DNA of 39,084 nt from Acidobacteriota bacterium (GTDB taxonomy: Bacteria > Acidobacteriota > Terriglobia > Versatilivoradales > Versatilivoraceae), in NCBI GenBank assembly GCA_022826755.1, contig JAJDUG010000042.1:1-39084 (forward strand), given 5' to 3'. How positions within the stretch are numbered: the stretch's first letter is position 1; each line of letters opens with the position of its first letter. The translations under genes and the position numbers were made by a program. A model generated the notes under the pieces. It was not told the origin of the DNA. It ran no database searches and worked only from the letters and a program-made list of their open reading frames with translations. Positions 5,463 through 37,562 of the stretch are shown here, piece by piece.

Positions 5463-8037
5463 AGATCAGCCGTTTTGGAACTTTGCCGTTCAAATGGCGC
5501 TGCACCGACTCCTGGCTCATGGCCGCCTCCCGAGCCTGAGCTTCGGTCAGGTCGGCCGGAAGATTCAGTCGCCCCCGGACCTTGCCGTTGACCTGAAGCA
5601 CCAGCGTGATCTCCTCCTCGGCCGCCAGCAGGCGGTCGGCCCGGGGCCAGGGCTGCTGGTGGATCGAGTAGGGACGCCCCTTCAAGGCCCAGAGCTCCTC
5701 CGCCATAAAGGGCGCCACCGGCGCCAGCATCAGCAGTAGCGCATCGATGGCTTCCACAAAGGCCTCCCGGCCAACCGGCTGCCTGGCGGCGTCGTGAAGC
5801 GCATTGGTGAACTCCATGAGCGACGAGATCACGGTGTTGAAACGAAATCCCTCGATGTCGCTCGCGACCTTGAGCAAGGTCTTGTGCGTCCAGCGGCGAA
5901 GGTCCCTGTCCTGCTTCCGGGTCCGTGAGGAGGAGGCCTCCTGGGTGAGAGGCCGCAAAATCACCTCCCAGGCGCGGCGCAGCCAACGAAAGGTGCCGGA
6001 GAGGCCGTTGGTGTTCCAGGGCGTGGACATTTCGAAATCGCTGATGAACATCTCGTAGGCACGCAGGGCATCGGCGCCCCAGGCCTCTACCATTTCATCC
6101 GGTGTGATGACGTTCCCCCGGCTCTTGGACATCTTTTCTCCGTCCTGACCCAGGATCATCCCCTGATTGCGCAGACACTTGAAGGGCTCGGCAAACGGCA
6201 GGTGACCCAGATCACAGAGCGCCTTGGTCCAGAAGCGGGCGTAGAGCAGGTGCATGACCGCGTGCTCGGCCCCTCCCACGTACATGTCCACCGGCAGCCA
6301 GTAGTCCACTTCCTTGCGGTCAAAGGCGGCCTGGGCATTGCAGGGACTCACGAAGCGCAGGAAGTACCAGGAGGAGCAGGCGAAGGTCCCCATGGTATCG
6401 GTCTCCCGGCGGCCCCGGACGCCGCCGGGCAGGGCCACCTGGACGAACTCGGGAATGGCCGCCAGGGGCGACTCTCCGCTGCCGGTGGGCTCGTAGTGCC
6501 GGACCTCCGGCAGCCGCACCGGAAGATCGCCGGCGTCCACGGGCACCTCGCCGTCGGCGGTGTGAACGATGGGGATGGGGGTGCCCCAGTAGCGCTGGCG
6601 GCTGATCCCCCAGTCGCGCAGCTTGTAATGGACACTGGATCTGCCCCGATAGGTCTCCTCCAACCAGTCGGTAACCCGGTCGACGGCCTCAGCGGTGGGG
6701 GTGCCGTCGAAGGAGCCGGACCGGCTCATGACTCCCTCGCCCGTCCAGGCCTCTTCCATGGTGTCGGACTGCAGCGGTTCATCCCGGCCCACGGGTTGGA
6801 TCACCACCCGGATCTCGAGGCCGTGCCGGCGGGCGAACTCGAAGTCTCTCTGGTCGTGGGCCGGGACCGACATGATGGCGCCGGTTCCATACCCCATCAG
6901 CACATAGTCCGCCACCCAGATCGGGATGGCTTCGCCATTAACCGGATTGGTGGCGTGGGATCCCAGAAACACACCCGTCTTGGCCCGCCCTTGGGCCGTC
7001 CGATCCAGATCGCTCTTGCCCCGGACCTGCTGTAGATAGGTCTCGACCTCTTTAGCCAATGAAGGAGCGGTGAGGGCGTGTACCAGAGGGTGCTCCGGCG
7101 CCAGCACCATGAACGTGGCGCCCCAAAGCGTATCGGGACGGGTGGTGAACACGGTCAGCGGCCCGGCGGCGGTGGCGAAACCGACTTCGGCGCCCCGGCT
7201 GCGTCCGATCCAGTTGCGCTGCATCAGCTTGATGCTCTCCGGCCAGTCCAGGCCCTCCAGGTCGGCCAACAGCCTGTCGGCGTAGGCCGTGATGCGAAAG
7301 AACCACTGCAGCAGCCGTTTCTTCTCGACCAGGGCTCCGCTTCGCCAGCCGCGGCCGTCCACCACCTCTTCGTTGGCCAGCACCGTCTTTTCCACCGGGT
7401 CCCAGTTCACGGAGGATGCCTCTCGGTAGGCCAGCCGAAAGTGGCTCAGGTAGTCCTTTCGCCCGGCGGCCGGCAACTGTCTCCAGGCCTCGGCGGTCAT
7501 GGCCGGAGCTCCGGGAATACCGTCGCTACCCTGCTTCGCCAGTTCCTCTTCCAGGCCGGAGATGGGACAGGCTTTCTGCAGCCGCGGGTCGTACCAGGAA
7601 TGGTAGAGCTGCAGAAAGACCCACTGGGTCCAGCGATAGTATTCAGGCTGGGAGGAGTTGATCTCCCGGCTCCAGTCAAAGGAGATGCCCAGCAGCCGCA
7701 TCTGCCGCTTGTAGTTGGCGGCGAAGCGGCCGATAAGCTTGGCCGGGTTGGTCTTCAGACGGATGGCCGCGTTTTCCGCGGGCAGACCGAAGGCATCCCA
7801 ACCCATGGGATGGAGGACGTTTTCGCCCCGCATGCGGTAGTAGCGGCTCAGCACGTCCGTAGGGACGTAATTTCGGCAGTGGCCAACGCTGAGCCCGTCT
7901 CCCGAAGGGTAGGGAAAGAAATCCAGCACGTACCTCTTGGGGCGGCCATCGGCCGGAGCGGTCCTGTAAAGCCCGTCCCGTTCCCAGCGCCCGGCCCACT
8001 TGGCCTCGATCCTGTTGGGGGTGTATTTAGGGGTCAT
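5428..8037 (-). CDS. leuS: Leucine-tRNA ligase
   Basis: This enzyme charges tRNA-Leu with leucine. The 869-residue product from ATG 8037 shows the class I signature at the N-terminus, FPYPSGDGLSVGHCRNY (HIGH-like SVGH at 50-53), and the KMSKS loop at about 635-639. The inserted CP1 editing domain is recognised by TTRPDTLWG near 295 and the GTGAIMSVPAHDQRD segment near 385, which hydrolyses mischarged tRNA. The C-terminal anticodon-binding domain ends in VQVNGKVRG-like sequence and a terminal VNIVA. A longer reading from GTG 8106 is possible, but its extra 23 residues look non-conserved, so ATG 8037 is preferred. It heads the leuS-lptE-holA operon. Confidence 0.96.
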   Translation of the reverse strand: MTPKYTPNRIEAKWAGRWERDGLYRTAPADGRPKRYVLDFFPYPSGDGLSVGHCRNYVPTDVLSRYYRMRGENVLHPMGWDAFGLPAENAAIRLKTNPAKLIGRFAANYKRQMRLLGISFDWSREINSSQPEYYRWTQWVFLQLYHSWYDPRLQKACPISGLEEELAKQGSDGIPGAPAMTAEAWRQLPAAGRKDYLSHFRLAYREASSVNWDPVEKTVLANEEVVDGRGWRSGALVEKKRLLQWFFRITAYADRLLADLEGLDWPESIKLMQRNWIGRSRGAEVGFATAAGPLTVFTTRPDTLWGATFMVLAPEHPLVHALTAPSLAKEVETYLQQVRGKSDLDRTAQGRAKTGVFLGSHATNPVNGEAIPIWVADYVLMGYGTGAIMSVPAHDQRDFEFARRHGLEIRVVIQPVGRDEPLQSDTMEEAWTGEGVMSRSGSFDGTPTAEAVDRVTDWLEETYRGRSSVHYKLRDWGISRQRYWGTPIPIVHTADGEVPVDAGDLPVRLPEVRHYEPTGSGESPLAAIPEFVQVALPGGVRGRRETDTMGTFACSSWYFLRFVSPCNAQAAFDRKEVDYWLPVDMYVGGAEHAVMHLLYARFWTKALCDLGHLPFAEPFKCLRNQGMILGQDGEKMSKSRGNVITPDEMVEAWGADALRAYEMFISDFEMSTPWNTNGLSGTFRWLRRAWEVILRPLTQEASSSRTRKQDRDLRRWTHKTLLKVASDIEGFRFNTVISSLMEFTNALHDAARQPVGREAFVEAIDALLLMLAPVAPFMAEELWALKGRPYSIHQQPWPRADRLLAAEEEITLVLQVNGKVRGRLNLPADLTEAQAREAAMSQESVQRHLNGKVPKRLIYVPGKLVNIVA

Positions 8038-8183
8038 GACAGTGCAGCAGCCAAGAGGCCGAGACGCTCGAAATCCTTTGTCTGGTTTGACTTTCAGCCG
8101 TTCCACTCAACCGCCGGCGATGTTAGCAAAGGGCCGGAAGAAGGGTCAAGCCGGGGACAGGATCAGGGCACAGCAAAATGGGG

Positions 8184-8212
8184 TTGCCGGCGCGATGGGA
8201 TCGTTCCATAAT
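8184..8212 (+). promoter_or_regulatory. Sigma-70-like promoter for the VWA/pentapeptide gene
   Basis: TTGCCG (8184-8189) and CATAAT (8207-8212) are separated by 17 bases, with four and five of six matches to the consensus boxes. The start codon of the downstream gene lies at 8261, leaving a short leader. This is the best promoter match in the divergent spacer between leuS and this gene. Confidence 0.5.
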
Positions 8213-8260
8213 TGAGCTACCGTTTCCGGGCAGTCGCCCCCCAAAAAACAGGATCGGACC

Positions 8261-11200
8261 ATGTCTCTCAGAGGGCCCCTTCTCCCTGGTGCAATTCTGG
8301 TGCGAACCCTGGTTGCCGTCTGGCTGGCAGCCGGCTTGGCGCCAACCCCGGCAAATGCGGAGGCCAAGCCCGCGGAAACCAACCAGGTCCGCGGCCAGTC
8401 CTCCTCCGGGTTCACCCTCAAGGTGCCGGTCGAAGTGGTGGTGGTCAACGCCATCGTCACCGACCGGGACGGGAACCCCGTCACCGATCTGACCGTCGAC
8501 GACTTCGAAGTCCTCGAAAACCGCAAGAAGCAGGCCATTCAGTCGTTTTCCCAGGAAGTCTACCAGGGCTCGCAAAGCTCCCTGACCTGGGGCAGCGCGA
8601 TAGGAGCGGAAGATCCGGCGCCTGAGGAGGCTCTCCCAAAGCCCCGCCTGCTGAGCCTGGTCATCGACGATCTCACCTACCCGCCAATGGGAACCCTCCA
8701 GCGCACCATCCAGGCCGTTCGCGGATTTGTGGACAGGGGGTTGAGAGCTGAAAACTACATCTCCATCCTGACCGCCTCCCGCGGCCATTTCGTTCCCTAC
8801 ACCCGGGACAGGGAACTGCTATTGGCGGAGATTGACAGACTCCACAAAAAGCTGGACTTCACCTCGGCCATGAACCGAGCGGGATGTCTCAGAATGACCG
8901 ATGCTCAAGCCGAGGAAATCCATGTCATTTCGTCCTCGCCGGGCAGCCGGGCCTTCGACGTGGCCATGTCCGAAGCCGAAGACTGCGGGATTGGCGAAGC
9001 CTCGGCCAACGCGTTGAGCGAGAGACAGCGAGTCGGGGTCGGCGCGACCGTAATCGATCCAAACCAGCAGGCCCTGGAAGCCTTTGTACGCACCCAGGCG
9101 TCCCAGCACCTGTCCCTTAAAACGGGCCGCACCCGGCGCTTGCTGGACGTTCTGCGGGGGCATATCCGCTCTCTCGGACCGGTGGAGGCGCAGAAATCCA
9201 TGGTGCTGCTCTCGGCAGGCTTCCTGCACCGGGCGCTTCGCTATGACCTGGAGCGCCTGGTCGACCGGGCGCTGACGACCGGCATCATCTTCAACACCAT
9301 CCGGATCACCGGGCTGGAAACCAGCTCCATGTACGACGTCAGCGAAACTTTCACCGAAAACAGCAATCTCCGGCTTGAAAAGGCCTTGCTGGTCACCGAG
9401 GACCGCAGGCAAAAGGGCATGGCCCTCGATTACCTGGCCATGGCTACGGGAGGCATCTCTTTCAAGGACAACAACGACCTGGGGTCGGGTCTGAGCAAGG
9501 TGGTGGACCAGCAGTTTTCCTACTACGTCCTGAGCTACGCCACCCCTCCCAAGAAGCCCGACGGGCGCTACTACAGGCTTCGAGTGAAAGTCTCGCGGCC
9601 CGGAGTCCGGGTCACTCACCGCAAGGGCTTCTTTGCCCCCAAGGAGCGCTTGTCCCCCGAGGAACAGAAGAAGAAGGAAATGCTGGAAGCCATGCGGGCG
9701 CCCACTGATCTGAGGGAAATCCCGCTTCAGATGTCCTACCACGGCTCCCGCCTGGACCCGGACACCTTCCGGTTGGAGATCGTGACCCGGCTGGGCTTTA
9801 AGGATCTCCCCTTTCTGGTCGAAGAGGGCAAGCGGATCAATCGGATCAACCTGGCCGTGGTTGCCTTCGACGCCAAGGAGGAGTATGTCGGAGGCAACGA
9901 AAAGGCCTGGAACTTCAAGCTCGGCGACAGCAGCTACCAGGCTCTTCTTGGATCGGGACTGACCTCCAAGGTTGAGCTGGAGGTTCCAGCGGGGCGGTAT
10001 CAGGTCAAGGTCGCGGCGCGGGAGAGCCTCAACGCCGGATTGGGGTCCCTCCGTCGAACCGTTGAGGTGCCGCTGCCGGCGGACCGGGATATCATGGGGA
10101 CCCTGGAAAAGTCCGTGCTCCGTGGACTCCAGGCATCCGAGCAGCACCAGGATCTGAATCTGGATTTCAAGGCCAACTTCTTCTACCAGGAGTCCGAGCA
10201 GGCTCTGGTCCTGATCACTGCCAAGGTCTCCTACGGATCTGCAGGACACACCCCAAGAAGCTGGTTGCCGGGGAATGATCTTCGCCTGATGGGAGTTGCC
10301 TTTTCTGACGACGGGCAGGCGGAATCGCTTTTCGGCCAGACTCTCCCGCTGGCAAACGGGAAGGCGGAATCAGCCGTGCAGGGATTTCTCAAGCTGAAGC
10401 CGGGAGAGTATCGCATCAAGCTGGTAGCCGCCGACCGCCGGGGCAAATTGGGAACCGCCGAGCAGACCCTGTGGATTCCGGACCTTCCCCAGGATACGCT
10501 CATGACCAGCGGCCTGGTCTTGAGTCAGGATCTGGAGCCCTTTTCCCCATCCGTGGCCGGAATGCAGGTCCCGGAGGCCCGCTGGCTGTTTCACCGCGGG
10601 TTCCGGGTGAAGCCGGCGATCAGCAACGAAATTACTCCACCCCAACCTCTTGCCGTCTTCTACAAGCTCTATAACGCCTCCGAGCTTGAGGACGGCAATC
10701 TCACGGCCCACGTCCAGGCCGTCAAGGACACGGGTGAGGCCGTCGACTTTCCGCCGATCACGCTGGACCGTAACCACCTGGAAGAGCGGGCGCCCGGTCA
10801 GGTTGCGGTGGGCTTCAAACTGTCCACCCAATCCTTGAGCCCGGGCAACTACCGATTCGAGATTACCACCGAGGAAACAGGCAGCGGCCGAGCCACCATC
10901 ACCGAGACCGATTTCGTGGTGAAGCAGGGCTCGGAAGTAGCGGCGTCCGTGGACGTGCCCGCGCCACTCAAACCCGCTGAGACTCCTGTCGACGAAACCT
11001 CCGGACCGAAACCGGTCGTTGGCCTTGACCTGAAAAAGATCAGGGACAGCCTGGAAATCCCACGGTCCTCGGGCAACGGAGCTCCCGCACCGCCCTACCG
11101 GTTCCGCGGCGATATCCTGGCCTGCGCCAACGACCAGGGAGAGCCCGGCTACAACCCGGATCATCCGGGCGAGTGCGGCGATCTGCGAGGAAACCGACTG

Positions 11201-12574
11201 CAGTCGCACGCCTTGAAGGGAAAGAATCTCTTTGGAGCCAACCTGAGCGGCATGGACCTTCGCGAGGCCGACCTTCGGGATGCGGTGCTGCTGAGAGCCG
11301 ACCTGACCCAAACCAGGCTTTGGGGAGCCGACTTGCGAGGCGCCGACCTTCGGGGGGCCAAACTCGCCGGCGCCGAACTGATCAAGGCCAGGCTGGACGG
11401 CGCCCAACTTCAAGGGGCCGATCTGACCGATGCCAGCCTGACCCAGGCCAGCCTGGAAGGAGCCAACTTGCTGGGCGCCAATTTGCAGGGAGCCATCCTG
11501 AAGGATGCCCGCTTGAACCAGGCCAATCTGCAGGTGGCAGACCTGTTGGAAGCGGTACTGTTCGGCAGCGACCTGAGGCAAGCCGACCTTCGGGGCGCAA
11601 GAATGACCCAAGCTGCTCTGGTCGATGGAAGGGAGGCCAATCTCTTTATCCCCCTTGCCGGCAGTATCAAGATCGGCAAGACGCGTTTTGCCGGGGCCCT
11701 CTTTGACAACAGCACCCAATTGCCCTTCGATTCCCAACAGGCCCAGACCAGGAAAATGCAGCCCGCCGACACTCCCTCCGCCTACAGTCGGCCCGAGTTC
11801 CTCATGCAAACCGGGTCCGAGGAATTTACCGTCACCGGCTCCGAAGCGCCCACTCTCGCCTCCGGCAAGCTCGGCGGGGTGCCGACCGACGCCGAATGGC
11901 CGGACTTTCTGGATGCCGTCCGTCGCAGGATCGACGCAACCGCGCAGAACCTGCCCAATTTCGTCTGTCGCCGCCGGACAGAGCGATTTGAGCGGCTGTT
12001 CCAAGGATGGCAGGAAAAGGACCAGCTCCAGGAAGACCTCTTGTTCGCCAACGGAGAAGAAACCTATCAGCCGGTCGAGGGGCACAAGGGAAGGGCCAGC
12101 CTGGACGGCGCTTATTCCATCGGACAATACGCGGCCGCTCTCCAAAACGTGTTTCTTCCTCAGAGCAGGACCACGTTCCGTCTGGAGGGCGCCGATGAGA
12201 TCGAGGGACGTCAGACCGTGCGGGTAGCCTTTCGGATTCCGCAGGAGACGTCTTCCCTTCAAGTGACCTTCCAGGGCAACCCCCTGCGAGTGGGTTACAG
12301 AGGACTGTGCTGGATCGACGTCAACACCTTCCAGGTGGTCAAACTGATCAAGGAGACGGTAGATCTCCCCGAGGATTTCCCCATCAAGACCTCGGAGGTC
12401 AGCATCGCCTACGACCGCATCCGGATCGGGGAGAGCCAACACTGGCTTCCGGTGCGGGCTCAGTTCAACATGTCGGTCGGCATCCTGCAGAGTGCCCGGG
12501 TCCATACCCGGAACGTCACCCGGTTCACCGACTATCGACAATTCGAAACCGACGTGAAGCTGCTGCTCGAGTAG
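8261..12574 (+). CDS. Secreted VWFA-related protein fused to pentapeptide repeats
   Basis: This 1437-residue protein starts with a signal peptide (about residues 1-34, ending ANA). A beta domain follows, with [19 protein letters not shown] near 60-80, the hallmark opening of the acidobacterial VWFA-related family. Next comes a von Willebrand A-like fold at about 125-330, where the usual DxSxS metal site is replaced by VIDDLT. The family's closing segment ([20 protein letters not shown]) is near 426-446. Beta-rich modules fill 450-960. About 27 pentapeptide repeats of A(D/N)LxG type occupy about 985-1123. A C-terminal domain (about 1195-1437) begins with [24 protein letters not shown]. It is probably an exported or surface protein of unknown role. 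The start is ATG with AGGA upstream, and it has its own likely promoter. Confidence 0.9.
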
Positions 12575-25381: not shown

Positions 25382-27265
25382 GTGCCGGGACTGTTTCTCG
25401 GCGTTCCCGGCGATGAGACGTTTGCGCTGCTGCCGGGGCACGAGCTCGTCAAGCAGGGCCAAGGGAACCTGGCGATTCGCCTTTCGGTTGCGGGCAGCGC
25501 CGCCGGTCTCATCATCGGCGTGGCCACCATTGTCGCCCTGCTGGCGTTCGGCAACGCGATCGGCGCCATGGAGGATATCATCGGTCCCTGGATGTTCTGG
25601 ATCCTGCTGACTGTCTCGGTGCTGCTGATCGCCACCGATTCACCCCGCGGCTGGTCGCTGGCGGTCTTCCTGTCCAGCGGGCTGCTCGGGCTGATGGTTT
25701 TCGGAACGCCGCTTGTCGCCGGCGGACTGGACGCACCGATCAATACCCTGTTTCCGGCCTTGGCCGAACTGTTCGGCATGGCGGGCCTGCTGTTCGCCAT
25801 CGCGACTACCGGCCCGCTTGGGAAGCGTCCACCGCCTGCCGAGTCTCCCGATCCGGACATCGCCGCCGTTGCCGGGCCCAGCCTCCGGGGCGGGTTCGCC
25901 GGCCTGGTGGTTGGCCTGCTGCCCGGACTCGGCGCCGCTAATGCCGCCACCTTGCTGCTACTGCTGGAACGGTGGTTCGGGCGGCGCGTGAGTCGTAACC
26001 ATCAGCGCCGCGCCTTTCTGGTAACCACGTCATCGCTCAATACGGCAGAGGCGTTGTTCGCGATCGCGGCGCTGTACCTGATAGGCCGGAGTCGCAGCGG
26101 CGCCTCCATCGCAGTGGAGCAGATCCTGGGCGGCATTGTCGTGCAGACCGACCTGCTCCTGATTGCGTTCTTCATGTTTCTCGGCGGCGTGATCGCGGCG
26201 GCCTTGCTGTGGATGACGGGAAGGTCGGTTGCCTCATGGATCAGCGCGGTTGACGAGATCGGCCTCAACTGGGGCGTGGTTGCCTTTCTGTCCGCGATTA
26301 CGCTGCTGTTGCTGGGTCTTGGCGGTCTGGTGATACTGGTATGCGCGACCGCCGTCGGGCTGGTGCCCCTGCTGTTCAACGTACGCCGGGCGCAATTGAT
26401 GGGCTTCTTCCTGGTCCCTACCATTCTCTTCTATTCCGGCCGGCAGGGGCACATCGTCGACTGGCTGTTGCTGCAACAGCGAACCGCGCCCTTGCTGCCT
26501 TCGGTCACACTCTCCGACATCGCACTGGCAGTGCTGGCGGCGGCTGCCGTGGCCCTGGCGGCCTATTACCTGGCACGCAGGATCGTGGCCGTGATTCGGA
26601 AGCGCGACTGGACGGCATGCGAGATCTCGAAGCCGGGCAAGCTGGTGGGCTACGCCACCGGCGGTGCGGCGGCGGTGATCCTGCTGATTGCGCTCTTCGG
26701 TCGGGCCTATCCGGACGACGAGATCGCGGCGGATCGGATCCCGGATCCCACGGAATGGGCGGAGGGACGCATAGCCCGAGTGATTGACGGCGACACGGCC
26801 GACATCGCCAGTGGGTGCCGCCGGTTCCGTGTACGGTTCAGCGGCGTGGACGCGCCGGAACTGGGCAGCGCTGCCGGCGAGCGCGCTCGCGCATGGGCGC
26901 GATCGACCTTCGAGAATCGGGCCGTCAGTTGGAGAGCGGTCGGCGTAGACGTCTACGGCCGCTTCCTGGGAGTGCTCCAACTCCCGGACGGCACCTCAGT
27001 CAACCAGGAAATAATTCGCCAGGGTTACGCTCGGCCCTACGTCGCACCGTCGCGGGCGGGTCGAGCCCGGTCCCGAAGCGTGGCTGAACGCCCTGCCCCG
27101 CCCGGGCCCGAGCCGACTGCTGAACCGCTTCCATGGGACGATAACGGCAATGGCCGCATTTCCTGCGCCGAGGCACGCTCGCACGGCATCGCCCCGGTAC
27201 GGCGCGGCCATCCCGCCTACGGCTACATGAGGGACGGCGACGGCGACGGGATCGTCTGCGAGTAG
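25382..27265 (+). CDS. TctA-like membrane domain fused to thermonuclease and excalibur domains (5'-truncated?)
   Basis: The first 440 or so residues are about ten membrane helices with the signatures of the archaeal-type TctA (tricarboxylate transporter permease) family: GVPGDETFALLPGHELVKQG, GLLPGLGAANAAT, SLNTAEALFAIAALYLIGRSRSGA and FNVRRAQLMGFFLVPTILF. A staphylococcal-nuclease domain follows at about 460-565, with the catalytic trio intact (Arg485, Glu493, Arg527) and the IDGDT motif. The C-terminus (about 588-627) is an excalibur calcium-binding motif, with Cys595, Cys626 and DGDGDG. The only start, GTG 25382, falls inside a conserved segment, has no ribosome binding site and leaves out roughly the first membrane part of the family. 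It is therefore either a broken gene or a new chimera. Base use is CpG-rich, hinting at transfer. Confidence 0.75.
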   Translation: MPGLFLGVPGDETFALLPGHELVKQGQGNLAIRLSVAGSAAGLIIGVATIVALLAFGNAIGAMEDIIGPWMFWILLTVSVLLIATDSPRGWSLAVFLSSGLLGLMVFGTPLVAGGLDAPINTLFPALAELFGMAGLLFAIATTGPLGKRPPPAESPDPDIAAVAGPSLRGGFAGLVVGLLPGLGAANAATLLLLLERWFGRRVSRNHQRRAFLVTTSSLNTAEALFAIAALYLIGRSRSGASIAVEQILGGIVVQTDLLLIAFFMFLGGVIAAALLWMTGRSVASWISAVDEIGLNWGVVAFLSAITLLLLGLGGLVILVCATAVGLVPLLFNVRRAQLMGFFLVPTILFYSGRQGHIVDWLLLQQRTAPLLPSVTLSDIALAVLAAAAVALAAYYLARRIVAVIRKRDWTACEISKPGKLVGYATGGAAAVILLIALFGRAYPDDEIAADRIPDPTEWAEGRIARVIDGDTADIASGCRRFRVRFSGVDAPELGSAAGERARAWARSTFENRAVSWRAVGVDVYGRFLGVLQLPDGTSVNQEIIRQGYARPYVAPSRAGRARSRSVAERPAPPGPEPTAEPLPWDDNGNGRISCAEARSHGIAPVRRGHPAYGYMRDGDGDGIVCE

Positions 27266-30990: not shown

Positions 30991-31018
30991 TTACCCATTG
31001 GACTCTAGATTGGAACTG

Positions 31019-32164
31019 CTACTGCGTCTTTGTATCAGCAGATCTGTTACGCCACTTCTCGAAGTCGAGTTGGTTACGAAGGAAGAGTTGGTACGGTTCA
31101 GCTTCGTCTCTACTTGGTTCTACGATTTCACGTTCTTGGGAACAACCAAGAAAACCTTCCAATTCTCCCGGGCGAAGGACCGGGATTTTCACAAGGTAAC
31201 CCCATCGCAAGCGCGCTTCATCAGTGGCCTCCCCTTGACCTCTTATGGAAAGTGTCAAGGAATCGTCCCGCCTGAAGACGGTGGAGTAAAATTTGTGAAC
31301 AGCGTAATTGATGCTGTCGCCCTCGTAATAATAGAAACGCCCAGCTCCACGAGCCTCCCAGTCTGGTGCCACCATTGACTTCTTGTGATCGTCAAAACTG
31401 ACGTAACGAATGCGGGCTAATCGGGTCTGGTGAAAATAGAGTTCGTAATAGCCTGCATGATTATTGTCGCTTCGAATCTCTCCGCGTGTCCATTCCTCAT
31501 GGCGAGCCATGCAATCGTCTGCGCTAGCGACTCTTAGCGTAAACTCAGGAAACGTTCTGTAATAAAAGTTCGCGTTACTTCCATCGCTTTCGACAAGTGG
31601 TGACCACGCATCAGGCTCACTCAAATAGCGCTTGGCCCTTTCAAGGGGCGGCAAATCCAGGCCGAAGCGTTCGCGCCACATTCGTTCGATCTCATGAGGC
31701 TGCGCGGCATCATTAACCGGGGTGTTGGTGTCACAGACGCGGGTATATATGTGGTGAGCGTCAATTTTTTCATATCTTTCGACGAGATAGTAAGGCTTAT
31801 GTGGCGCATCCTCTATTACCAGAACATCGAGTAACTTCCCGTCGATTGTGACTTCTTTCAGATAGAACTCCGGGAACCTGGATTGGAAAAACTTAATAGC
31901 ATTACTGTGAAACAAATCAGCTAGATCTGCTTGGGTTCTCCTCCCATCATCCTTATCTATTGGATACAAAGAAAAGTCCTTATCATCAACCCCGAATACC
32001 AAAAACCGGTCACCAGTATGTTTTGCGTTTGCGAGGCAAAGGACGTCGTGAATAAGGTCCGCGTTGCTGTTGTGATGCTGGCGTTTGAAATCCCAATACG
32101 TGCCTTCAGCTCTTCGACTAATGAGCATCGAGATAAGCTCATGTAGAGCATCTTGTTTGGTCAT
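31019..32164 (-). CDS. AlbA_2 (Schlafen-type) domain protein
   Basis: The 381-residue product begins with an AlbA_2 domain, a nucleic-acid-binding fold shared with Schlafen proteins. It shows YWDFKRQHH near 24-31, an ANAKHTGDRFLVFGVDD segment at 45-61 and a later VLVIEDAPHKPYYLV strand pair. The remaining 220 residues have no domain I recognise. AlbA_2 proteins are frequent in defence islands, where some act as regulators or RNases. The gene is visibly more AT-rich than the restriction enzyme upstream and follows it after 146 bases in the same direction. I see no clear ribosome binding site before ATG 32164. It may be a separate acquired gene or the last unit of the operon. Confidence 0.8.
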   Translation of the reverse strand: MTKQDALHELISMLISRRAEGTYWDFKRQHHNSNADLIHDVLCLANAKHTGDRFLVFGVDDKDFSLYPIDKDDGRRTQADLADLFHSNAIKFFQSRFPEFYLKEVTIDGKLLDVLVIEDAPHKPYYLVERYEKIDAHHIYTRVCDTNTPVNDAAQPHEIERMWRERFGLDLPPLERAKRYLSEPDAWSPLVESDGSNANFYYRTFPEFTLRVASADDCMARHEEWTRGEIRSDNNHAGYYELYFHQTRLARIRYVSFDDHKKSMVAPDWEARGAGRFYYYEGDSINYAVHKFYSTVFRRDDSLTLSIRGQGEATDEARLRWGYLVKIPVLRPGELEGFLGCSQEREIVEPSRDEAEPYQLFLRNQLDFEKWRNRSADTKTQ

Positions 32165-32310
32165 GAGAGTTGGTTTGAATTGCTTGAATAGTTTCTAAAA
32201 TGGAACTTCGCCCTGTTTACGATATGCCCGATAGGCATCTTCCTATCAAGCCATGAAAGCGGTCTATGGTACTTGTAAAGTTCAGGAATTAGTCAATATC
32301 GCCACGGACC

Positions 32311-35300
32311 TCAAGACGCTATATGTGCCGGCACCGAAGTCAATAACAATATAGCCCCAATCCGCCTTGCTGTATCGGTTACGTGCTGGACTTCCTCGGG
32401 TGAGAGTGCGCGGCCGAGGATGGAGCGTTCGCGGTAGGACAACCATTTCTTGAGGACTTGGTAGCCACCGAGCTTGTAGGTCCATACAGCGGCCGGGATG
32501 TTTCGCCAATAGGCGCGTTCGTTCAGGTAAACATCGAAGGTCGTCTCGCCGAGGGTAACAAGCCTATCGCCCAAGGCGAACCGTTCGGCGGATGTGTAGA
32601 CCCGTTCGTATACTCGTCCCTGGCCGGGCATGATGGCATCGCCCGATCCGAAATGTCCCCAACCGGACGACACCGCGAAGTCGCCTCCGGTCATGTTTCG
32701 CTTCTCGATCGTGGCGGGAACGGCGATAGCAGCGAATTCCGTGCGCAAGAATCCTTGGGTGACGCCGGGCACGGGCGTTTCGGAGTCGAGCAGGCGGGCG
32801 AGTTCACGACCGCGCTCCGCTGATTTGGCAAGCGCCTCAGCCGCGCCGTCGACCTCGCCATCGGGCCAGCCCGGAAGCGGGATGCGCGGCCACTCCATGC
32901 GGAATGCGTCAGCATTGTCTTTGCGGTAGGAAGGATCGTGCATGATCGCGAGGACACAGTAGAGCAGATCTTCCACACCCAGACCCAGACGGTCGAGATA
33001 GCGTTGTGCCGTCGGCGTGAGATTGGCGTGACGATCGCTCTCACGGTTGCCTAGGACATCGCCGAGGAGCCAAGCGGGGAAGAGATGGACTCCCCAGAAA
33101 CCATACTTCCAATTCGTAAGGTCATGAACCCAGGTGCCGTGGGTGAAATCTGTTTGAATCTCCCGCTTGCTCGACCCAATCCACAGATTTCCTTCGAATG
33201 CATGCGGCTTGTAGTCGGGACGCGGACGATCCAGCAGGCCACTATCCGCCTCCCAATAGAGCCAGCGCTTGTCGAACGGCCGGTACGCGAAGCGGACAAA
33301 ACCGGCTTCATCCGGCCCGCCGCGCGCGAGTAGCGCGTCACGCACTGCGCGGGCGTCGAACCGCGCCGTGGTCTTCATAACACCCGGGTAGCGCCGCGCA
33401 ATCTCCTCGTGACTCAGGTTCGGGTCTAAGTAATCCGCGACACGTACCTTGAGCCGCTCTAGATCGATGTCCACGAGAAACCCGTCGCGGCTGGTCTTGA
33501 CGCCGGGAAACGACACCAGGAACAGATCCGGCAGCGCCGGCCAGTCGAACCAATCCTCGTTCACCGCAGTTTGCGTGAAGGGCAGGCCGAGTGGCAGGAC
33601 CGGGGAAACGTCATTGTACAACGCGGCCGGCGGCGCCTCTGCGGTCTTCAACAACTCCGCGCGTTTGGTTTGCCCCCACAGATGGCGAAAGCCAACCTCT
33701 CCGAATGGGACCAGATCGGCTTTGCGCACCAAGGTCGTGATGGCCGTGCCGACCTGAATGCCGACCGGATCCCCTTCGGTCGAAAAGATACTCGGGTCCG
33801 GCGAACCGTCCGGCGCCACCTTGCCGGTCTTGTACTTGTCGCCGTTCAGGCAGTCGATGCGGACCGCGTCGAACACCTCCAGGTAGCGCTCCCGCATCCC
33901 GGTGAAGGAGAGCCCGTCGAGCCAGGAGTAGTTGGAGATGAAGCAGACAACGCCCTGGCCTGTCTTTGCAATGCGCCGTTCGGCCATGCGGAAGAAGCGG
34001 ACATAGAGATCGTTCAGACCCTGGCCCTCGGGACGGCGCACCTGCCGGGTCGTACGGTAGGCGTCCGACAGCTCTCGTTCCTCGTCCACCGCCATGCCGG
34101 CAAAACCGTTGTAGGGGGGATTGCCCAGGATCACGAGAATCGGCGTATCCCGCTTGACCCGCTCGGCGCGGTCGCGTTCTTCCTCCAGTTCGGGAAATGG
34201 CAAAGGCTTGGTCGTCTTTGGCTCCCAGCCGGTGAGCGCGTTGGTGAGGAAGACGCCGGCGCGCTCATTTACGTCGTCCGCCAACGGCGCGTCGAGATCC
34301 TGCATCGTGAGCCCGACCTGTAGATGGGCCACGACGAAAGGCGCGGGCATGATCTCGAAGCCGAACACGCGCTCGGTGGCCGCCTGTTTGACCCGAGCAC
34401 CGGTAAGTGCGCCCAGGCCCTGCTCTTCGAGATTGGCGGCGATGCGGCGCAGCACTTCCGCCAGATAGGCCCCGGTGCCGCAACAGGGATCAAGCACGTA
34501 GACGTTCTTGGCCGCCAGCCCGTCGGCGATACCGAGATCGTCCTTGAGCGCCTTGTCCACGCGGGCGACCATGTAGCGCACGACGTCCGCTGGCGTGTAC
34601 CAGACGCCCAACTGCTTGCGCAAGCCGGGGTCGAAGGCTTCCAGGAAGGGCTCGTAGAAATAGGGTACGGCCTCGCCTTCGTTGAAGCGCGCGAAGAAGG
34701 CGGGCCGGTCCACTCGGTCGAGCGCCGCAGCCGTCCAATCCAGCACCTCGACCAAACCCAGTGGTTGCAGGCGTCCAGGGCCGGAGAGTTGGTGAAACAA
34801 CGCCCGCAGCACCGGCGCGCGCAGGTGCCAGACGGCTTCGCGCCAGTTGAACCTGCCCCTGAGGCGAGGCGTCTGGCGCGCCCACAGCACCCAGGCGGAG
34901 AAGACCCCGTAGAAGAGCGTCTGCACCAGGGTCGAGCGAAAGAAGCGCTCACCCCTCTGGCCCTCGAAGCGGACGCCGAGCGCCTCTTCCAGTGACGACC
35001 GCACCGCTTGGAGATACGGCGCGTCGCCTGCCGCCTCGACTCGGGCCAGCCCGTCGCGGGCGTAGGAGGCGAGCAGCCAAGCCAAGTCCTTGGGCTCGGC
35101 CAGAGCAGCCCGATGGGACAACGCGCGACAGAGATATTCACCCAGACCGGCGCCGACTTCGCGGGCAAAGGCACGCGGCTTCTCCAACCGCTGCCCGAAC
35201 GTTTCCGCGTTGTCAGCCAGCCGGAAGGTCTCCAGCTTCGCCGGCCGGCCAACTGCATCCTCGCCGAGCAGCACCAAGTCGCGCGTATTGGTCACCAGCA

Positions 35301-35661
35301 CCAGCCGATAGCGGCTCCAGTAGCGGCTTGCCTGCTCGCCATCTGCCGTCAACCAGGCGTCATCCCCAGCGGACTTCACCTCGACCACGCCGCGCTCCGG
35401 CACCTGCCCCTGGCGTGGCCGGCCCTTCTGTAACTGCTTTGCCGCATAAAGGCCGAAGTCGGGATGGCCCGCGCCCTGGTCGGCCAGCTCGCCGACGCAG
35501 AACACCTTCGGCTTGAGCGTCGCTCCGACGGCGTTCAGCAGGTTGGCCAGCGGTCCGTAGCTTGATCGTTCTGCGGTGGCGCCGCCGGACGCCCGAATCC
35601 GCCGCAAGTCGGTGAAGTAGGCTTCAACTGCCGCCGTCAGCCGAATTGTCGTTCTCGTCAT
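32311..35661 (-). CDS. Single-chain restriction-modification enzyme, type IIG/ISP-like
   Basis: This 1116-residue protein likely methylates adenine and cuts unmodified DNA. A nuclease-like N-terminus has the PD-(D/E)XK pattern: HPDFGL with Asp68, then VEVKS with Glu94 and Lys96. The methylase core has motif I DPCCGTG at 391-397 and motif IV NPPY at 514-517, typical of N6-adenine methylases. The C-terminal half contains FVRFAYRPFDKRWLYW, resembling the type ISP specificity domain. No helicase motifs are present, so it is not a full type ISP enzyme. The start ATG lies 15 bases after the DUF4276 stop, so it is co-transcribed with the ATPase pair. The target sequence is unknown. Confidence 0.88.
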   Translation of the reverse strand: MTRTTIRLTAAVEAYFTDLRRIRASGGATAERSSYGPLANLLNAVGATLKPKVFCVGELADQGAGHPDFGLYAAKQLQKGRPRQGQVPERGVVEVKSAGDDAWLTADGEQASRYWSRYRLVLVTNTRDLVLLGEDAVGRPAKLETFRLADNAETFGQRLEKPRAFAREVGAGLGEYLCRALSHRAALAEPKDLAWLLASYARDGLARVEAAGDAPYLQAVRSSLEEALGVRFEGQRGERFFRSTLVQTLFYGVFSAWVLWARQTPRLRGRFNWREAVWHLRAPVLRALFHQLSGPGRLQPLGLVEVLDWTAAALDRVDRPAFFARFNEGEAVPYFYEPFLEAFDPGLRKQLGVWYTPADVVRYMVARVDKALKDDLGIADGLAAKNVYVLDPCCGTGAYLAEVLRRIAANLEEQGLGALTGARVKQAATERVFGFEIMPAPFVVAHLQVGLTMQDLDAPLADDVNERAGVFLTNALTGWEPKTTKPLPFPELEEERDRAERVKRDTPILVILGNPPYNGFAGMAVDEERELSDAYRTTRQVRRPEGQGLNDLYVRFFRMAERRIAKTGQGVVCFISNYSWLDGLSFTGMRERYLEVFDAVRIDCLNGDKYKTGKVAPDGSPDPSIFSTEGDPVGIQVGTAITTLVRKADLVPFGEVGFRHLWGQTKRAELLKTAEAPPAALYNDVSPVLPLGLPFTQTAVNEDWFDWPALPDLFLVSFPGVKTSRDGFLVDIDLERLKVRVADYLDPNLSHEEIARRYPGVMKTTARFDARAVRDALLARGGPDEAGFVRFAYRPFDKRWLYWEADSGLLDRPRPDYKPHAFEGNLWIGSSKREIQTDFTHGTWVHDLTNWKYGFWGVHLFPAWLLGDVLGNRESDRHANLTPTAQRYLDRLGLGVEDLLYCVLAIMHDPSYRKDNADAFRMEWPRIPLPGWPDGEVDGAAEALAKSAERGRELARLLDSETPVPGVTQGFLRTEFAAIAVPATIEKRNMTGGDFAVSSGWGHFGSGDAIMPGQGRVYERVYTSAERFALGDRLVTLGETTFDVYLNERAYWRNIPAAVWTYKLGGYQVLKKWLSYRERSILGRALSPEEVQHVTDTARRIGAILLLTSVPAHIAS

Positions 35662-35676
35662 CAGCAGTCATCGCTT

Positions 35677-36369
35677 CTACGGCGACTCCGCTCCAAGTTT
35701 CTCAAGTCGATCAATCCACGCACTGAAGTGGGGACACTTGGAGCGAATGGTCTTCAGGCCGATTCGCTCGGCCATCTGCGTGCCTACCGTTGTCTTCAAG
35801 TCGCTGTATTGGGGAAGCCGGGCGATGATTCTCTTCGATGGAGCGGTCTGTTGCCCGTCGTCGATCAGTTCCGGGGACGGGACGTCATCGACGATTGTCT
35901 GCAGAGCGGAGATTTGGGAACTTGCGTTGTCGAAGAAGAAAGCGAAATGAGGCACATCGCAAAACAAATAGGCTTCAAATTCATGTAGCTGAAGGAAAGG
36001 GATGAAACGGCGGTCACCCGTCTCATCAGACCACGCTGTTTCGAGGGCATGCACCCATCGATACGGGCTGTGACGCAGTTTCCGAGCTTCGCTACCTCCC
36101 GGAAAATCCCTATGCAGGGCATAGAGGTCGATCATCGTGGTGAAGAACACCTCATTGCCCGGTTCCTGCCTGAGAAAGCGATTGATGTCATTCTGCATTG
36201 CCGCAAAGCTTCTTCCGCCGCCCCGATGAACTTTACCTTTCTTTCTGGCATGGGCAATCAAGACCGGACTGTGCATGTAGACGCCAAAATTTGCCAAATG
36301 CCTTTTCAGAACGGCATTGGCAAACGTCTGCTCTGTTTGACCTTCAGCGAAGAGATAGAGGCGAACCAC
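35677..36369 (-). CDS. DUF4276 family protein, possible TOPRIM-like nuclease
   Basis: The 230-residue product starts at GTG 36369. This codon overlaps the ATPase stop by one base (TAGTG) and has GGAGGG eight bases upstream; the longer open frame upstream is not conserved. It shows RLYLFAEGQTEQTF near the N-terminus (Glu9), FFTTMIDLYAL at 76-84 (Asp81) and LQLHEFEAYLF at 127-137, the signature set of DUF4276. The EGxTE motif followed by an acidic strand end resembles a TOPRIM active site; this is my inference. Coupled translation with the ATPase implies a complex, as in PARIS, where an ATPase cages a TOPRIM toxin. Confidence 0.85.
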   Translation of the reverse strand: MVRLYLFAEGQTEQTFANAVLKRHLANFGVYMHSPVLIAHARKKGKVHRGGGRSFAAMQNDINRFLRQEPGNEVFFTTMIDLYALHRDFPGGSEARKLRHSPYRWVHALETAWSDETGDRRFIPFLQLHEFEAYLFCDVPHFAFFFDNASSQISALQTIVDDVPSPELIDDGQQTAPSKRIIARLPQYSDLKTTVGTQMAERIGLKTIRSKCPHFSAWIDRLEKLGAESP

Positions 36370-37475
36370 TAATGCGGCCCTCCGCCAATGATATTTTTCT
36401 CCCAGACCTCCCCAAGTAGGTAGTCTTCCAGCCACTCGTTCAGCTTTCCGGCATCCGGCCTGCTGAACTCTGTAGCATCACCCCTTCGTTCGACAACCAC
36501 GATGTCCTCCGACTCACAGTTGTCCAGAAATGCGCTGGACTGGGTGCTGACGAGCACCTGCGTATGGCGAGATGCAGCCCGAAACAGCGAAGCGATCACC
36601 TTGAGCGCATATGGATGCAATCCGAGTTCCGGCTCATCCACCACGATGAGAATTGGGAGGTTTTCCTTGGGCTGCATCAGCAGTGAAATCAAGCAGATGG
36701 CGCGTAGCGTACCGTCCGAGAGCTGATGGGGTCCGAAAACCAGATCGGAATTTCGATGCCTCCAGTTGAGAATGATGTCCCGATGGCCGGGGCCAGTTCG
36801 ATCAAGACTAAAGTCTTCGAAGAACGGCGCCACCTGCCGGACGGTCTCGACGATTCCACGGTACGCAACTTCCCTGTGGGACTTTAGCTCATACAATATC
36901 GCTGCCAAATTGGCTGCATCCGGCATAAGCCAGCGACTATCACCGACGTAGCAATACTGCCGAATTCTCGCAGTTGCGGACGTGTCGTGGAAGTGATAGA
37001 CACGACAATGATTCAGTAAATATCTGAGCATTCTGGCCGCAGGTTCACCCTCTTCCGCTCTGTCTCCTATCCGCGTTTCTTGATGACCAGCCCCGAACGA
37101 TGCGACCCTTGGGTGCGGATAGCCTGTTTGATGAAAGGAAAGAATCTCTTCAGCAAAAAACAGGGAATCACCGGCAACGTGGAACAGCCTCATCCGATAG
37201 GTGTCTGTTCCGTTCTCAACCTCAAACTCCATCTCCGCTTCCAATTGAGGCGTAATCTTTGGGCCGAAGTACAGATTGGCCGTGGCCCGACCCGTCGCGC
37301 TGATATGTTGCTGTAGCCGTCCTCCCATCAATTCATTCACCATCTTGAAGAAGGAAATGAGATTACTCTTGCCTGCGCCATTGGCGCCAATCAAGACGTT
37401 GAGAGGACGGAGTTCCAGCTTCATTTCTTTGATGGATCGAAAGCCCTTTATCTCGATTCTCTTCAGTCTTGCCAT
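36369..37475 (-). CDS. ABC/RecF-type AAA ATPase of a defence pair
   Basis: The 368-residue product is a RecF/SMC-like ATPase. It has FRSIKEMKLELRPLNVLIG leading into Walker A GANGAGKS (30-37), the ABC signature LSDGT at 252-256, Walker B VVDEPELGLHP at 278-288 (Asp280, Glu281), and a switch strand VLVSTQSS near 308-314 where the usual His is Gln. The coiled-coil insert is short. The start ATG has AAGGAG upstream. It is first in the operon and is followed by the coupled DUF4276 gene and the restriction enzyme. Such ATPases often sense phage components or DNA structure. The trigger here is unknown. Confidence 0.88.
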   Translation of the reverse strand: MARLKRIEIKGFRSIKEMKLELRPLNVLIGANGAGKSNLISFFKMVNELMGGRLQQHISATGRATANLYFGPKITPQLEAEMEFEVENGTDTYRMRLFHVAGDSLFFAEEILSFHQTGYPHPRVASFGAGHQETRIGDRAEEGEPAARMLRYLLNHCRVYHFHDTSATARIRQYCYVGDSRWLMPDAANLAAILYELKSHREVAYRGIVETVRQVAPFFEDFSLDRTGPGHRDIILNWRHRNSDLVFGPHQLSDGTLRAICLISLLMQPKENLPILIVVDEPELGLHPYALKVIASLFRAASRHTQVLVSTQSSAFLDNCESEDIVVVERRGDATEFSRPDAGKLNEWLEDYLLGEVWEKNIIGGGPH

Positions 37476-37562
37476 GCTGCTATCTCCTTCACTGTCTCGT
37501 CATTTGCGCCGCCCAGGCCAAGAACGCGGGTTTCATGTCCCCTGCCGCCCAACTCCGCGGCA

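Follow-up and report, generated by a model that had tools for sequence, protein, structure and literature searches.

A HEC-01-type ATPase–DUF4276 pair in the single-chain restriction operon of a Terriglobia bacterium: a possible backup for failed restriction

Why should an ATPase gene and the gene for a putative nuclease stand immediately upstream of a restriction gene? The question is raised by a 39,084-nucleotide stretch of DNA (hereafter the window) from a Terriglobia bacterium of the phylum Acidobacteriota (assembly GCA_022826755.1, contig JAJDUG010000042.1, positions 1 to 39,084). Four genes on its minus strand encode an ABC/OLD-type ATPase of 368 residues (36369..37475), a DUF4276 protein of 230 residues that is a TOPRIM-like nuclease candidate (35677..36369), a single-chain restriction enzyme of 1116 residues (32311..35661) and a Schlafen/AlbA_2 protein of 381 residues (31019..32164). 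The first two make up a pair that is already known as the PADLOC candidate HEC-01 (Hma-embedded candidate 1, Hma being the helicase-methylase-ATPase set). In our judgement it is slightly on the probable side that this pair is a PARIS-like abortive module of two genes that was recruited into a single-chain type IIG/ISP-like restriction operon. The original prediction, made from the sequence of this locus, had four co-directional genes at these positions, and all four stand, each with a clear family match.

The ATPase, DUF4276 and restriction genes form a tight unit, and the AlbA_2 gene is merely nearby. The DUF4276 gene starts with a GTG at 36369, one base of which is common to it and to the TAG stop of the ATPase gene. 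The gene had thus been predicted correctly, with a misplaced start that gave it 252 residues instead of 230; the codon aligned to the GTG is ATG in 16 of 19 homologues and GTG in one. Only 15 base pairs (bp) separate it from the restriction gene, so that three genes do follow one another with almost no spacing, as predicted. The restriction and AlbA_2 genes, on the other hand, are 146 bp apart. Guanine-plus-cytosine (GC) content is 48% at 31001-32000, the kilobase of the AlbA_2 gene, 56-66% in the restriction gene and 54-58% in the ATPase gene. A scan of the locus for promoters and terminators did no better than with shuffled sequence. The whole unit is an insert (30991..37562) between an M19 dipeptidase gene and a class V aminotransferase gene, since these flanks are directly adjacent in six relatives, namely G397, G398, G399, G400 and G401 of the same genus and G403 of the same family; the comparison leaves out G402, where the contig ends, and G404-G406.

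What are the two proteins of the pair? The ATPase matches the HEC-01A model (1.1e-137) as well as AAA_21 (3.7e-27) and AAA_15 (2.2e-17), the Pfam families looked for in a PARIS-type ATPase partner, and its motifs GANGAGKS, LSDG and VVDEPE are intact. Its predicted structure, with a predicted local distance difference test (pLDDT) score of 89.7, resembles the heads of SMC, Rad50 and PtuA, and the protein is of the ABC/SMC-head type, in agreement with the ABC-type ATPase first proposed. The same heads fill the 50 VIA entries listed for this model; AriA is absent from them, which excludes nothing. The MAD3 ATPase of MADS was rejected as an identity, NF047739 scoring 110.9 bits against a curated cut-off of 420 bits.

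The DUF4276 protein, encoded by the adjacent gene, matches PF14103 (8.7e-53) and HEC-01B (2.7e-73), and its model, built from 19 homologues, has a mean pLDDT of 92.2. A sequence search of the PDB up to E 10 brought up no relative of DUF4276. With Foldseek, one PDB match alone falls below 0.001, to the OLD protein of B. pseudomallei in its C-terminal region. In the VIA comparison the top four rows are OLD TOPRIM entries with Z scores of 9.4 (6njw), 9.3, 9.1 and 8.9, of which three represent a single Xanthomonas protein, and later rows include the uncharacterised 2p62 (8.6), retron Eco8 (7.4), a structure that we take to be akin to OLD, and T. scotoductus OLD (6.1). OLD-family nuclease entries, from three distinct proteins, thus fill five of the eight best rows, and other folds appear from Z 6.0 downward. 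Chain A of the PARIS entry 8ux9, presumably AriB, reaches a Z of 7.3 over 183 residues with a root-mean-square deviation of 4.4, which is in the middling range for the tool. The weight of the predicted fold thus rests on the agreement of the OLD rows and not on a Z of the PARIS level: OLD TOPRIM domains come first, and the likeness to AriB that had been proposed is weaker. Three acidic residues are invariant in 68 diverse DUF4276 rows: E9 (in all 64 rows with a letter at that place), D81 (67/67) and E132 (68/68). The count leaves out L076 and L080 as well as L166, L169 and L171, which are near-copies of other plasmid loci. A second DUF4276 subfamily has DxD. The TOPRIM-like look noted at the outset is upheld by the predicted fold together with these residues; the outcome named beforehand as fatal to the idea, a structure with no nuclease-like site, did not come true. 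Judging from the model, such a site is present, and the protein may well cleave nucleic acid.

Is the pair then a PARIS system? Like PARIS (AriA/AriB), it combines an ABC ATPase with a protein of TOPRIM fold, the latter here by predicted model. This part of the proposed likeness stands. PARIS is a system activated by an anti-restriction protein such as Ocr. AriB, however, is a DUF4435 protein, and the window protein is a DUF4276 protein with no match to PF14491 (DUF4435) at E <= 1, and a profile comparison with one DUF4435 protein showed no link; membership in PARIS was accordingly rejected, and the pair was in any case already catalogued as HEC-01. Identity with RloB was rejected as well, the window protein having no PF13707 match at E <= 1; a search for RloB at 1e-6 in 119 genomes of the phylum found none. 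A separate single-chain AAA_21-DUF4435 protein, a PARIS-like fusion, is encoded elsewhere in the window's own genome (L130, G000:C3:96392).

The restriction enzyme matches PF18135 (5.9e-39), PF02384 (4.7e-8) and REase_MTase_IIG (1.3e-85). It carries PD..VEVK at residues 67-96, VLDPCCGTG at 389 and NPPY at 514, and has PDB relatives in 7lo5, LlaBIII (4xqk) and LlaGI (5ffj). The nuclease-methylase enzyme of the original prediction is thereby confirmed. With the type ISP enzymes LlaBIII and LlaGI and with the type IIG enzymes it has in common a methylase and a C-terminal specificity domain, the N6 methylase being recognized by PF02384 and the type ISP specificity domain by PF18135. It differs from LlaBIII and LlaGI, however, in that no helicase or translocase family was found in its 1116 residues at E <= 1. 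Because no helicase family was found, the enzyme is typed from its sequence as type IIG-like with a type ISP C-terminal domain: one chain with a nuclease motif, an N6 methylase, a specificity part and no translocase. On plasmids, most homologues of the enzyme carry the annotation type ISP.

Does the pair adjoin restriction genes in other genomes? Sixty pair loci were assembled, 20 from a search of genome contigs and 40 from 396 genomes of the phylum (55 with a match), these 40 being the best-scoring among 98 listed places, with that of the window set aside. The loci are best-scoring matches and not a random sample; they include near kin (L067/L068, L105/L106, L092/L095/L102 and L128/L129), and in 16 of them less than 5 kilobases (kb) is available on a side. 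The gene caller placed an ATPase gene on the same strand and 5' of DUF4276 in 56. In the other four, the ATPase was found by tblastn (L072), the contig end cuts the locus (L080 and L093), or there is none (L116). DUF4276 was missed or mis-framed by the gene caller in L066, L078, L097, L113, L121, L124 and the cut L080 and was placed by search coordinates.

In 7/60 loci (L063, L067, L068, L075, L093, L103 and L126, with L067 and L068 close kin among them), a methylase gene interrupts the pair or lies at most 200 bp from it on the same strand, where 0.045 would be expected from the methylase density of 40 random regions. Adjacency to restriction genes at no more than the chance rate, the other outcome that had been set against the idea, thus did not come true. 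The first methylase profiles had been seeded partly from pair loci, and the count was redone with outside seeds, which gave this number and the 13/60 reported below. The control regions were hand-picked in the same genomes; one of them, L187, contains a seed gene, which if anything raises the control. With the first profile set, methylases occupied 7/117 positions adjoining the pair and 4/567 positions two to eight genes off (p = 0.0007, or 0.0025 when L105 and L106 are put in the far count); one of the seven, in L112, is divergent at 601 bp. By Pfam, the 51 adjoining co-directional genes hold N6_Mtase 3, N6_N4_Mtase 3, Methylase_S 3, HSDR_N 2, ResIII 5 and UvrD 4 among the best 25 of 87 families. 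In 69 genes four or five steps farther off, no methylase family with at least two members occurs among the matches listed, which are the best 25 of 113 families.

The adjoining methylase genes represent at least five restriction architectures. The three-gene order of the window was found again, identical, in a Candidatus Binatia locus (L063), with an IIG/ISP-like enzyme and with identities of 82, 71 and 77% for ATPase, DUF4276 protein and enzyme. In L067, and alike in L068, the pair is beside a ResIII helicase and an N6_N4 methylase, in L103 beside an N6_N4 methylase and UvrD, and in L126 beside an Eco57I-type methylase. A fusion of an N6_N4 methylase with HNH lies between the ATPase and DUF4276 genes in L075 (Rhodothermales, 7046-10651), and in the type I operons of L111, L118 and L119 the pair sits between the S and R genes (hsdS and hsdR). 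On plasmids, an ATPase-sized gene is directly 5' of DUF4276 in all 12 records (annotated as an AAA family ATPase in 10 and as hypothetical in two), and a methylase adjoins the pair in four, two of which are one arrangement of Aeromonas media.

There are also some separate observations on where the pair occurs. The window's own genome has four DUF4276 matches overall; a second pair there, of another subfamily, stands divergent from a type I operon about 600 bp away (L112, G000:C8:90000-109999). The Acinetobacter plasmid pTR11_2 (L161), a mobilizable plasmid of 11 kb that also carries tet(39), has the pair with no methylase. Phage records gave no DUF4276 match and IMG/VR two loci. On one viral contig (L243, IMGVR_UViG_3300033402_000750), the pair comes after genes that, by eye, resemble phage structural genes and adjoins an N6_N4 methylase gene on the opposite strand.

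How did the present arrangement come about? In a member of the same genus (L076, Terriglobia OX638355.1; G396 and G491 have the same coordinates), the site holds an intact ATPase gene with 89% identity, followed by a DUF4276 gene from which residues 21-150, and hence D81 and E132, are missing in frame. A 53-bp match (88.7%, E 3e-16) spans the DUF4276 stop and extends about 27 bp, or about nine codons, into the restriction gene; the site has neither the remainder of that gene nor AlbA_2. The three-gene order would thus be ancestral, with later decay in L076. On a broader scale, the restriction-linked label on 17 of the 66 rows of an ATPase tree requires 14 changes, and the linkage to restriction has therefore arisen and/or disappeared on many occasions. 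The tree was built quickly and has long branches in L123, L127, L163 and L164. It omits L166, L169 and L171, has no row for L080, L093 and L116, lost L125 (249 residues as called) to a 250-residue filter, and takes its L072 row from tblastn coordinates.

What might the pair do for the restriction enzyme, and the enzyme for the pair? Probably, the pair is a self-destructive defence module. The enzyme would be the first layer of defence and the ATPase–DUF4276 pair the second, with the ATPase acting as a sensor and as a lock that keeps the nuclease silent. A phage that evades restriction, for instance because it blocks the enzyme or makes an anti-restriction protein, would cause the ATPase to change state, and the freed nuclease would then cut host RNA or DNA, leading to growth arrest. 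The gene overlap, the intact motifs, the TOPRIM-like model, the recurrent linkage to several restriction architectures and the joint loss of the restriction gene and the nuclease core in L076 are the footing for this proposal. Whether the pair would sense the phage protein directly or through the restriction enzyme is a further matter; direct sensing is somewhat more likely, since most examined pairs have no adjoining restriction gene. PARIS is described as functional in cells without any type I system (PMC9122126), which fits the stand-alone pairs; the joint loss in L076, in turn, is in keeping with PrrC, which is described as being retained in its restriction complex (PMC3874165).

Several results weigh against recruitment of the pair as a guard of restriction. 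At the level of sequence, a profile comparison of DUF4276 with OLD TOPRIM aligns only 19 columns round EGxTE, with a probability of 7%, and the comparison with DUF4435 gave the negative result mentioned above. At the level of gene context, a methylase is present somewhere in the locus of about 20 kb in 13/60 cases as compared with 3/40 random regions of the same genomes, a difference that is not significant (p = 0.09). For about 45 of the 60 pairs, neither a methylase nor an hsd gene was seen in the examined stretch, in which other restriction families were not all searched everywhere. Eight of the 12 plasmid pairs have no adjoining methylase, one of them (L165) with an HNH gene just upstream, and the 69 farther genes hold ResIII 2 and RE_endonuc 2. 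The proposed linkage of pair and restriction enzyme is thus above chance, but most examined pairs do without it.

The enzyme, for its part, can do without the pair. It has matches in 23 of 101 related genomes, and among its best relatives besides those in its own genome, which are 41-73% identical by segment, all eight genomes lack the ATPase at 1e-30. Other members of the enzyme family keep other company. In G400 (locus L150), of the same genus, a SIR2 gene with a match to DSR2 (2.2e-109) stands 4 bp downstream of a relative with 73% identity (L150:2731-5605, G400:C357); the SIR2 gene is apparently split into two open reading frames, and the contig begins inside the enzyme, so that only the downstream side is visible. 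On Sphingomonas plasmids, the enzyme relative precedes a McrBC-like pair (L246) or AbiD (L248), and elsewhere ordinary or unidentified genes follow. Altogether, a direct defence partner is beside five of the 12 enzymes with a checked neighbour, the window included (window, L063, L150, L246 and L248); this count leaves out L152, L156 and the plasmid hits H15 and H18-H30. The varied partners can mean exchangeable backups, or plain clustering in islands. Partners such as the DSR2-like, McrBC-like and AbiD genes may be what any defence island shows, and to that extent they too speak against a special bond between enzyme and pair.

These points lend substance to the view that the two are simply independent neighbours, HEC-01 being a free-standing abortive system in a defence island that is co-transcribed for convenience and has a trigger unrelated to restriction. 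We regard this as a substantial possibility that falls short of probable. The many pairs with no methylase or hsd gene nearby, the plasmid pairs with no adjoining methylase, and the enzymes with no pair or with other defence partners are what it would lead one to expect. It accounts less readily for the excess of methylases directly beside the pair over positions two to eight genes off, for the operon-type overlaps, or for the placement of the pair between S and R genes. Guarding could also take a narrower form, in which the ATPase or the nuclease binds the enzyme directly, as in PrrC, and is freed upon its inhibition, so that a cell losing the restriction gene would be exposed to the freed nuclease. 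The L076 site argues for this, with its intact ATPase yet both the restriction gene and DUF4276 residues 21-150 gone, as does the embedding of prrC in a type IC operon (PMC3874165). But L076 is a single case of loss, most pairs have no adjoining restriction gene, and one conserved contact is hard to reconcile with partners of several unrelated architectures; direct binding, whose chances overlap with those of recruitment as a guard in general, therefore seems rather improbable. Least of all do we expect the pair to be a mere accessory of modification or restriction, such as a second nuclease that extends cleavage with no abortive effect. Its foremost structural relatives are OLD nucleases, which are described as DNA-cutting (PMC10568477), and methylase-helicase genes are beside it in L067, L068 and L103; the restriction enzyme, however, has its own PD-(D/E)XK motif, and the pair is also found without methylase neighbours, which leaves this reading very improbable.

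Recruitment as a guard could be carried one step further. HEC-01 may be a restriction-agnostic cassette that became attached again and again, in different lineages, to type I, helicase-methylase (type III/Hma-like), methylase-HNH, Eco57I-like and single-chain IIG/ISP enzymes, and that senses a common sign of failed restriction, conceivably an anti-restriction DNA mimic or DNA that is held yet uncut. We offer this tentatively, as an attractive but doubtful generalization. If it were true, the operon in the window would be a minimal self-contained restriction system plus failsafe, made up of one restriction protein and two guard proteins.

How much of this is new? The name HEC-01 derives from its embedding in Hma/BR loci, an embedding that is not known to be a detection rule. 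RloA and RloB are likewise abortive genes inside restriction operons, and PrrC, a HEPN-type nuclease, is different from the window protein. In the window, the pair is joined to a single-chain IIG/ISP-like enzyme without an Hma set and is flanked by that enzyme and the M19 dipeptidase; its relatives L067, L068 and L103, on the other hand, do adjoin helicase/methylase genes. Several Hma-embedded candidates were antiviral in tests, the accessible text of that study making no mention of HEC-01 as tested (PMC12988326), and in one further paper HEC-01 is merely listed as detected (PMC12724379). The backup idea itself is already in print, in the 2026 survey of BREX and BR systems and for PrrC and PARIS. 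According to that survey, dyads of an OLD-ABC ATPase and a TOPRIM protein, the same kind of ATPase–nuclease dyad beside methylase systems as here, provide BREX and BR (Hma-like) systems with a backup layer of effectors for when the core is countered, and Schlafen RNases are another such backup (PMC12839542). The survey covers BREX/BR loci, and its main text does not contain the word DUF4276 (PMC12839542); the partner in the window is a stand-alone restriction enzyme. EcoprrI offers a parallel of another kind, an abortive gene within a restriction operon, with which the pairs between hsdS and hsdR in L111, L118 and L119 may be compared. In the open-licence literature searched, no mention of DUF4276 was found, and a HEC-01-type pair joined to a single-chain restriction enzyme was not met. 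The TOPRIM-like fold, the candidate catalytic residues and the restriction context make a named candidate testable. An operon of three genes whose restriction enzyme is one protein would offer an unusually simple system in which to study how cells sense that restriction has failed.

The AlbA_2 gene (PF04326, 4.9e-11; PADLOC candidate PDC-S50, 8.9e-82) is present 3' of the restriction gene, as predicted, but its inclusion in the system is unsupported. Apart from the 146-bp gap and the lowest GC content, it is rare in the class, with homologues at 1e-10 in two of 200 genomes, its own included, and no match to it was found in the eight loci of restriction-enzyme relatives L150-L157, several of which are cut by contig ends. 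Probably it is a defence gene in its own right that shares the island. Farther away, on the plus strand of the window, 8261-12574 encodes a 1437-residue protein with pentapeptide repeats, and a 627-residue open reading frame at 25382-27265 combines a TctA-type permease with a staphylococcal nuclease domain and an Excalibur domain.

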